A DNA stretch of 64,000 nucleotides from Maledivibacter sp. (GTDB lineage Bacteria > Bacillota > Clostridia > Peptostreptococcales > Caminicellaceae), in NCBI GenBank assembly GCA_025210375.1, contig JAOASB010000012.1:1-64000 (forward strand), given 5' to 3'. The notes beneath the pieces were generated by a model. It had not been told where the DNA came from, made no database searches, and was given only the letters and a program-made list of their open reading frames with translations. This document shows, piece by piece, positions 11,170 through 59,917 of the stretch. The first letter of the stretch is position 1; every line of letters starts with the position of its first letter. A program made the position numbers and the translations under genes.

Positions 11170-11520
11170 CAAATAAAAATGAGGTTTCAAAATCAAGGGG
11201 ACAGTATTTCGTGACCAAGTACATTTATGTGTAAGTATGCCACACGAATATAGTGTTCCTTATAACTTTAGATATTATTATGGGGGCGATTGCCCTCTAT
11301 CTAAGGTTTATTTTGGTTTACGGAATAATGATAACTTGATATAATGAGATTAAAATAATGGAATTTTAATTACCTAGATTTTGTACAAATAACTAGGTAG
11401 TATTTAGAAAACTATATAAACTTAATAACTGAAACTAGACATGCAGAAGTATTTACTACTTTATTCTCATCTAGTTTAGATCATATACTTTTCATAGGTG
11501 AGATGCCGCCTTTCTGTTAA
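11170..11520. other. Intergenic stretch without recognisable gene
   Basis: AT-rich, with stops in all frames. Nothing supported apart from a G-rich patch at 11281-11297. It leads into a MITE-like repeat. Confidence 0.4.
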
Positions 11521-11683
11521 TTGAGCAAATTGCATAATTACTTTCTATAAAAACCATCTACTACATGTAGTTTAAAAATCTTCAAAGCTATGCCACCAAA
11601 TATGCTTATATCCTAAGTAATTAAATTAAGGATGATATTCGCATATGCAATTGTGCCAAGTAAGAGTTATGCAATTTCCTCAA
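11521..11683 (+). repeat. MITE-like element, copy 1 (full length, 163 bp)
   Basis: It begins TTGAGCAAATTGCATAA and ends TTATGCAATTTCCTCAA: 17-bp terminal inverted repeats with one mismatch. The interior has a small palindrome (ACTACATGTAGT). It has no coding capacity. A closely related 163-bp copy lies at 26510-26672 and shorter copies at 34806, 57910 and elsewhere. It sits 100 bp upstream of the GGDEF/EAL gene. Flanks are TTAA/TTAT-like; no clear target-site duplication could be fixed by eye. Confidence 0.85.
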
Positions 11684-11782
11684 TTATTTTTGTGGTAAAT
11701 ATATCATGGAATTTTTATTAAATTACATATTTGTTGTTTGTAGAAAACTTAGGTAATTAAATTGTAATAAGAGGGTAAGCTT

Positions 11783-14838: not shown

Positions 14839-15118
14839 TTATCTAAATCCATTAATATCAAACCAGATCGTTTTTCATTTATATTCCCTACATACCTTGT
14901 CATTAATATTCACTTTTGATTTACTAGCTTTGCCATCATTATACTAATTTTTTCTATATTTCTGTTGTTAGGTTGAGTGCCTTCATACATCCTACCGTCC
15001 CTTAGCTTCTTTCTTTTCTAAATATGAGTTGTTAGACAATTGTTGAGAATTTGTTGAGAACAATATGATAAAATATGAAATTATTCGACAAAAAGGTAGA
15101 TTTAGGAAGTAAAATCAA

Positions 15119-15170
15119 GAATAATATTCCTATATTAGGCTCCAAGTAAGAGTTATGCAATTCTCCCATG
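15119..15170 (+). repeat. MITE-like element, 3' end fragment
   Basis: Matches the right-hand end of the full copies (ATATTAGGCT, then CCAAGTAAGAGTTATGCAAT), ending in a decayed terminal repeat. The left half is absent. Confidence 0.7.
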
Positions 15171-19585: not shown

Positions 19586-19764
19586 CAAGTACAAAATGCC
19601 TAGAACCATCGCATATTTGTCTATGTATAAATTAAGTTATACTATGAAAAAACTATATAGATGATTTAGGTTAAGATCAATAAATATTTTCTTAAATATA
19701 TTTATTGATATATAGAGAACACTATATATTAAGATTAATAGCTTAGTTTGATTAAGGGAGGTGT

Positions 19765-26258: not shown

Positions 26259-26788
26259 GAAAAATCAGATCTATTTAAGCCCCAGAATATATACCTTGAA
26301 AAATATTAATGAATAAACGAAAGTAAAGTAATAGTAAACAGTTTCTATGGATAAAGTTTAATTATAATAAATAAAATATTGACAAAAATATGAAATGTTA
26401 TTATAATTATACTATAATGCAAAGCTTCTTTAAAATATTTAACAATCATGAACTTTTGTTTGAAAATATTTTTCTGATGAAACTTCATGATTGTACCCAC
26501 TCTTTTTAAATGAGCAAATTACATAATTACTTTCTATAGAAACCATCTACCATATTTAGTTTTTAAATCCCCAGAGCAACACCATCAAATATTCCTATAC
26601 TTTAAGTAATTACACCACAGCTTATATTCCCATATGTAACTCAGCCAAGTAAGAATTATGTGATTTATTCAATTATGTTAAAGTAGTTTCACAAAGTAAA
26701 GCTTTCACATTGGCTTATATAAATGCATTTAGATAATGTATTTTATGTATAGTTACCATTAAATTTGAAAAGAAAGAGGGAGGATATT
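26259..26788. other. Intergenic region before oppA paralogue 2
   Basis: AT-rich and without a gene. Contains MITE-like copy 2 (26510-26672). Around 26380-26412 (TTGACA then TTATAATTATACTATAAT) there is a plausible vegetative promoter upstream of the repeat. Confidence 0.45.
26510..26672 (+). repeat. MITE-like element, copy 2 (full length, 163 bp)
   Basis: Starts ATGAGCAAATTACATAA and ends TTATGTGATTTATTCAA. It aligns with copy 1 along its whole length and has the same length. The terminal repeats have decayed more than in copy 1. Confidence 0.82.
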
Positions 26789-34704: not shown

Positions 34705-35130
34705 GATATCACCACCCCAATTTAAAAGATCAGATTATTAGTACTATTATATATATATTTATTATATTTCTTGATATTCTGAGAAAATTGTATAAATTTT
34801 ATAATTTGAGCAAATTCCATAATTACTTTCTATAAAAACCATCTACTGCATGTAGTTTTAAAATCCTCAAGGATATATCATATATATTATGCAATTTTCT
34901 CATTAAATCATAGTAAGTTTAAAAATATTTAAGGTGGTTTTGATATTTTAAAATAATCCATACAACTGAAATAGAAAGTGAGATATAATAGAAAGGGATG
35001 ATTTAATAAATAGGCAAATCGCAAATGATTAAGAAGTATGAAAAAAATAAATAAGTTGGATCGTGAAGTGATTTTGCTTAGAATTTAAATCCACGATTAG
35101 TTGTATTTACATAAAGAAAGGATGAATGAA
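34705..35130. other. Divergent intergenic region holding MITE copy 3
   Basis: Separates the minus-strand hypothetical from the AIR-synthase-like gene. Apart from the repeat at 34806-34903 it is AT-rich with no recognised element. Confidence 0.4.
34806..34903 (+). repeat. MITE-like element, copy 3 (98 bp, internally deleted)
   Basis: Begins TTGAGCAAATTCCATAA and continues like copy 1 through CATCTACTGCATGTAGTTTT, then jumps to the right end TTATGCAATTTTCTCAT. About 65 bp of the interior is missing and both terminal repeats remain. Confidence 0.82.
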
Positions 35131-57909: not shown

Positions 57910-58057
57910 TTGAGCAAATTACATAATTACTTTCTACAGAAATCATCTACTACATAGTTTTGAAAGCCACAAAGATATGCCATATCTTAAATATTCAAAT
58001 TAAGGATGATATTCGCATATTAGGCTTAGCCAAGTCAGAGTTATGCAATTTCCTCAA
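57910..58057 (+). repeat. MITE-like element, copy 4 (148 bp)
   Basis: Begins TTGAGCAAATTACATAA and ends TTATGCAATTTCCTCAA, with small deletions relative to copy 1. The segment TTAAGGATGATATTCGCATA is identical to copy 1. It lies in the upstream region of the PTS gene. Confidence 0.85.
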
Positions 58058-58101: not shown

Positions 58102-58104
58102 ATT

Positions 58105-58143
58105 ATGCAACTTAGCCAAGTTAGAATTATGCAAATTCCTCTA
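58105..58143 (+). repeat. MITE-like element, 3' end fragment
   Basis: GCAACTTAGCCAAGTTAGAA, then TTATGCAAATTCCTCTA: only the right end remains, directly after copy 4 and a terminator hairpin. Confidence 0.65.
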
Positions 58144-59840: not shown

Positions 59841-59917
59841 TTGAGGGGGACTGCATAACTCTAACTTGGCTAAGGCTAATATGGGAATATCATCCTTGAA
59901 TTATACAATTTACTCAT
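59841..59917 (-). repeat. MITE-like element in inverse orientation (77 bp, deleted)
   Basis: Reads TTGAGGGGGACTGCATAACT and later GGCTAATATGGGAATATCAT, the reverse complement of the right half of the other copies, and closes with TTATACAATTTACTCAT. It is the only inverted copy seen. Confidence 0.75.

Follow-up and report, generated by a model that had tools for sequence, protein, structure and literature searches.

The window, by which we mean the whole 64,000-nucleotide stretch analyzed here (contig JAOASB010000012.1 of a Maledivibacter assembly), carries copies of a short repeat whose neighbors are ordinary, unrelated genes, among them those for a MarR regulator, a GGDEF-EAL protein, solute-binding proteins, and PTS genes. 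An earlier note, made from the sequence alone, had described this repeat as a MITE-like family with 17-bp inverted ends. A profile search recovered all copies listed there (Table 1), and the end motif occurs 15 times in the window at up to three mismatches, against 2.7 occurrences expected and with none of 100 shuffles reaching 15. The inverted sequence at 59841, previously taken for an end fragment, is a two-ended deletion copy with ATTT on both sides.

Table 1. Copies of the MITE and associated repeats in the window, with further loci of the other repeat families in the host genome (G000).
Feature	Position	Strand	Remarks
Full-length MITE copy, 159 bp	11523..11681	+	profile match; 15-bp terminal inverted repeats GAGCAAATTGCATAA / TTATGCAATTTCCTC
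Left target site duplication of the 11523 copy	11519..11522		AATT
Right target site duplication of the 11523 copy	11682..11685		AATT
Degenerate MITE right-end fragment	15102..15167	+	profile match 15102-15165
Second repeat family	19608-19657	-	also G000:C29:312422-312682 and C37:164355-164549
Full-length diverged (older) MITE copy, 159 bp	26512..26670	+	profile match 26512-26666; flanks AAAT / AATT (1 mismatch); nearest relative 80.5% identical
Extra end-like sequence just upstream of the 34808 copy	34781..34795	+	GAGAAAATTGTATAA
Internally deleted MITE copy, 94 bp	34808..34901	+	flanks ATTT / ATTA; profile match 34808-34881
Internally deleted MITE copy, 144 bp	57912..58055	+	flanks AATT / AATT; profile match
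MITE right-end fragment	58104..58141	+	profile positions 122-159
Strongly deleted two-ended MITE copy, 73 bp	59843..59915	-	flanks ATTT / ATTT; profile positions 99-157 at 59846-59904
Third repeat family	G000:C29:89322-89419, C52:140395, C10:68823		

Copies were aligned with their flanks, and 2.05 Mb of host sequence was read base by base, which is 45% of the genome (a 55-contig draft). The element runs for 159 bp from an initial GAG to a final CTC and is bounded by 15-bp inverted repeats, GAG[C]AAATTGCATAA / TTATGCAATTT[C]CTC, the repeat taking the form GAG[C/G]AAATTGCATAA. Outside these limits the bases vary among copies, but a given copy usually has the same tetramer on both sides; the element proper is therefore 159 bp, and the outer TT and AA are each half of an AATT target duplication. 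The inverted ends claimed earlier thus stand, but their length of 17 bp and the copy length of 163 bp do not, since both had taken in bases of the duplication. An exact 4-bp direct repeat flanks 74 of the 103 two-ended copies in the 2.05 Mb, compared with 7.4% when the left flank of one copy was paired with the right flank of another. No other repeat length stands out among these 103 copies (exactly 5 bp once, longer never). The duplicated tetramers are AT-rich, mostly with A first and T or A last.

Lengths of 159, 118, and 86 bp are each found repeatedly in the same host sequence and make up three size classes; the short forms keep roughly the first 36 and last 38 bases of the long one. At position 4 of the inverted repeat the left end usually has C and the right end G (79 of 103 copies), giving the MITE a polarity. 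Many copies repeat the end core (TATGCAATT) some 22 bp in from the right end, within element positions 122-159; this repeat may be a further binding site for the transposase.

The family extends far beyond the window. In a whole-genome search, which the earlier note had proposed, the 163-bp query matched at least 43 times, and the end motif at up to two mismatches matched 655 times across the host genome, against 12 times for the reversed control pattern. With a profile built from full copies, 169 elements and fragments were found in the 2.05 Mb, or some 82 per Mb, which extrapolates to about 375 genome-wide. The copy number suggested by the window alone was thus a strong underestimate.

Joining the flanks and comparing the product with other loci revealed, for at least two insertions, paralogous sites that the element does not interrupt. 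The copy at C52:140416-140574 (duplication TATC) has a gap-free empty paralogue at C10:68823-68868 (93% identity), as well as an empty site in the genome G003 (83%, with a single gap that lies clear of the junction); the copy at C37:153907-154024 (AACT) has a gap-free empty paralogue at C37:164133-164249 (85%). The empty paralogous sites hold a single copy of the target. Full-length copies are 69% to 99% identical in pairwise comparison. At eight contig ends, about 140 bp of mutually identical MITE sequence is followed by differing outer flanks, which indicates that some copies are very young. We infer recent transposition from these mutually identical copies, a pattern that would be expected where an assembler breaks at identical copies.

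Could the repeat instead be a conserved structured RNA, or a regulatory intergenic sequence under selection? Copies are indeed intergenic in 68 of 70 cases (less than 10% overlap with open reading frames), in sequence of which about 84% lies within open reading frames according to a simple caller, and the element folds more stably than shuffled sequences (z of -3.8 on the plus strand and -2.4 on the minus strand). The predicted stability, however, comes mostly from the terminal repeats, with a covariation term of -0.11 kcal/mol and one compensated pair, and the only Rfam matches at gathering score in the window are tRNAs. Target duplications and empty sites record insertion, and the genes flanking the window copies are unrelated. 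The same gene context in every species, which the earlier note had named as the mark of a structured RNA, was not seen, the flanks being different in every copy. We consider an RNA or regulatory origin very unlikely. The repeat is short and non-coding, has terminal inverted repeats and a target duplication of fixed length, and is dispersed over unrelated sites that have empty counterparts; the MITE reading is thus supported by the genome-wide copies, the 4-bp duplications, and the uninterrupted paralogous sites.

One locus in the host has the appearance of an autonomous parent. At G000:C29:225940-227462, MITE outer ends and an AATT duplication enclose 1523 bp with a 388-amino-acid transposase, the sole PF01609 match in the host genome and a member of the IS701 family (NF033540, 185.3 bits against a cutoff of 150). 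The outer parts of this locus, however, match MITE positions 1-108 and 93-159 and add up to a single ordinary MITE of 159 bp; the part between them is bounded by separate ends, ACTTGAGTTGTGCAAA, and by a separate GATTA duplication. The anatomy of the locus refutes the IS701-family element as parent, a role for which we see hardly any chance; it is an unrelated IS nested in a MITE. Elsewhere in the host, widely spaced end pairs whose 4-bp flanks agree proved to be neighboring or interrupted MITE copies.

Further candidates were rejected by the same kind of comparison. A PF01609 DDE transposase element of G003 has different ends of its own and interrupts MITE copies as the IS701 element does; three identical copies of a 503-amino-acid IS1182-type (PF13751) transposase in G003 also have different ends; and no rve-type transposase of G000, G002, or G003 has MITE ends around it. 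In the three closest genomes, unrelated transposases lack MITE-type ends except where they have landed in or beside a MITE. Unrelated IS have repeatedly entered MITE copies (the C29 locus above and G003 loci L081, L089, and L090) and may thus be using them as landing pads.

Two other short repeat families accompany the MITE. One, listed in Table 1 as the second repeat family, is about 100 bp long, has the ends TATAGGG(A/T)TTTT..., and is inserted inside MITE copies, apparently with duplication of TA. Its terminal motif has 50 matches at up to four mismatches in the 2.05 Mb of host sequence, and related sequence is present in G077, from another family of the order. The other, the third repeat family of Table 1, with ends ATAAACAAC...GTTGTTTAT, is nested in or adjoins the MITE, its terminal motif matching 37 times in the 2.05 Mb of host and 10 times in 400 kb of G003.

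The MITE is also found outside the host. A scan of 394 genomes of the order with TTATGCAATTTNCTCA gave 282 matches in the host, 300 in G003, 56 in G006, and 20 in G122, with small numbers in about 20 further genomes and nearly none for the reversed control. The same family is present in a sister genus, and across the Peptostreptococcales there are elements with the same ends whose bodies differ between genera. Collections of phages and plasmids gave no match, and a scan of viral contigs gave a full-length match in only one, which appears to be a prophage and carries a copy similar to the G003 type. The end sequence TTATGCAATTTCCTC was not found in the literature searched. In G077 (C43:198-1926, L236), two perfect inverted MITE ends lie 1.73 kb apart. 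The 1731-bp pair was rejected as an IS, as it encloses a peptidase M15 gene and an apparent cold-shock gene with no recognized transposase, and its flanking tetramers differ; the ends could be chance neighbors or could bound a passenger-gene cassette.

The earlier note had also proposed looking for an IS with matching ends, and this search identified one class in relatives and none in the host. Its members are 1.46 to 1.49 kb long and combine an IS1182-like transposase with MITE-matching ends and 4-bp duplications. In G036, a 1494-bp element bounded by MITE-type ends GAGCAAATTTCATAA / TTATGCAATTTCCTC encodes an intact 418-amino-acid transposase with DUF772 and DDE_Tnp_1 domains. Its best NCBIfam family is IS1182 (NF033551), with a score of 178.8 bits that falls below the equivalog cutoff of 270, so the presumed parent belongs to an IS1182-like subgroup and is not a typical IS1182 member. 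Related transposases with matching ends occur in G017, G117, G178, and G001, and the relatives in named records include Candidatus Petromonas tenebris, Sinanaerobacter chloroacetimidivorans, Clostridium sp. UBA10317, and others. Exact duplications (AAGC, ATCT, AATT, and CTTT) surround four of the IS1182-like copies. At least one MITE-type end accompanies nearly every close relative of the 418-amino-acid transposase examined, one fragment having only a weaker near-match. The sister genus Candidatus Petromonas carries degenerate copies of this IS; to judge by matching loci, G001, from the host's own family, appears to be Candidatus Petromonas (Peptostreptococcales at NCBI). The MITE and the IS have in common only the ends and a few subterminal bases, and their bodies differ. 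Unlike many MITE right ends, the IS right ends inspected show no obvious second TATGCAATT core.

Searches for a homologue of the IS1182-like transposase found none in the host, G006, G122, or G097, and those in G003 are only about 30% identical and have different ends; an active pairing is therefore not seen in any MITE-rich genome. An alternative is that some other transposase, unrelated or domesticated, mobilizes the MITE there, the IS1182-like elements being an older common source of the ends. Genomes with a close homologue carry few copies, those with the most copies (G000, G003, G006, and G122) lack one, and the identity of the youngest copies over about 140 bp means that something moved them recently. 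Set against this, few transposases came up when G000, G002, and G003 were searched with PF01609, PF00665, and PF13751, none of them lying between MITE ends except those that had entered a MITE or its immediate vicinity, and we regard mobilization by such an enzyme as improbable. A bolder version, to which we give similarly little credence, is that one end-recognition code serves many unrelated bodies throughout the order, that a resident transposase outside the IS1182-like group (for example, a domesticated one) keeps the MITEs mobile in the genomes where they are most numerous, and that the ends possibly double as host RNA-processing or promoter sites.

Very probably, the repeat is a non-autonomous MITE family that retains only the sequences needed by a DDE transposase and was mobilized in trans by an IS1182-like transposase or a close relative, the IS itself having been lost or left unassembled. 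Each element carries only what such an enzyme requires, namely terminal inverted repeats of 15 bp and short subterminal stretches. Copies have entered new, mostly intergenic AT-rich sites, duplicating four target base pairs each time, as their flanks record, and deletion variants of 118 and 86 bp that retained both ends have been amplified as subfamilies in their own right. The ends and the 4-bp duplication, common to the MITE and the 1.46- to 1.49-kb IS of related bacteria, are what tie it to the presumed mobilizing enzyme, an IS1182-like transposase or close relative acting in trans. The IS would have disappeared from the host lineage after or during amplification of the MITE, or would be absent from the draft assembly.

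About 80 MITE copies per Mb is high for a bacterium, and identical young copies without a detectable partner offer a good natural case for studying what keeps orphan MITEs active and the rate at which a host loses their partner. An end sequence common to several families of one order, moreover, lets the class of the partner transposase be assigned.

Among known systems, the Correia elements of Neisseria likewise fall into long and short size classes produced by internal deletion; they have a TA target duplication and ends of about 26 bp of other sequence, compared with 4 bp and 15 bp in the present MITE. The ends of ERIC elements also differ from those described here. Both are intergenic MITEs of high copy number, with more than 120 Correia copies in the gonococcal genome and, for the very high-copy ERIC, 711 in Photorhabdus (PMC10969869). 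ERIC further differs in its hosts, and the present MITE has a clear target duplication and a partner IS class in relatives. The presumed parent shares the DUF772 and DDE_Tnp_1 transposase architecture with the IS1182 family; for IS1272, listed under that family, a different, inverted-repeat-replacing mechanism is reported (PMC5678879). The nearest likeness is to the MITEs of Methanosarcina acetivorans related to ISMac2 (IS1182 family), 160 and 169 bp long, which are also short non-autonomous elements paired with an IS1182-family IS, and for which one table row appears, by an inferred column order, to give 4-bp direct repeats (PMC3852290). Those elements differ in having an archaeal host, only 14 and 7 copies, and inverted repeats of about 25 to 26 bp, with the columns again as inferred (PMC3852290). 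Because IS1182-tied MITEs and the high-copy Correia and ERIC elements have been described, the present family is new but its kind is already known, and it is set apart by its copy number, its recent activity, and the apparent absence of its partner.
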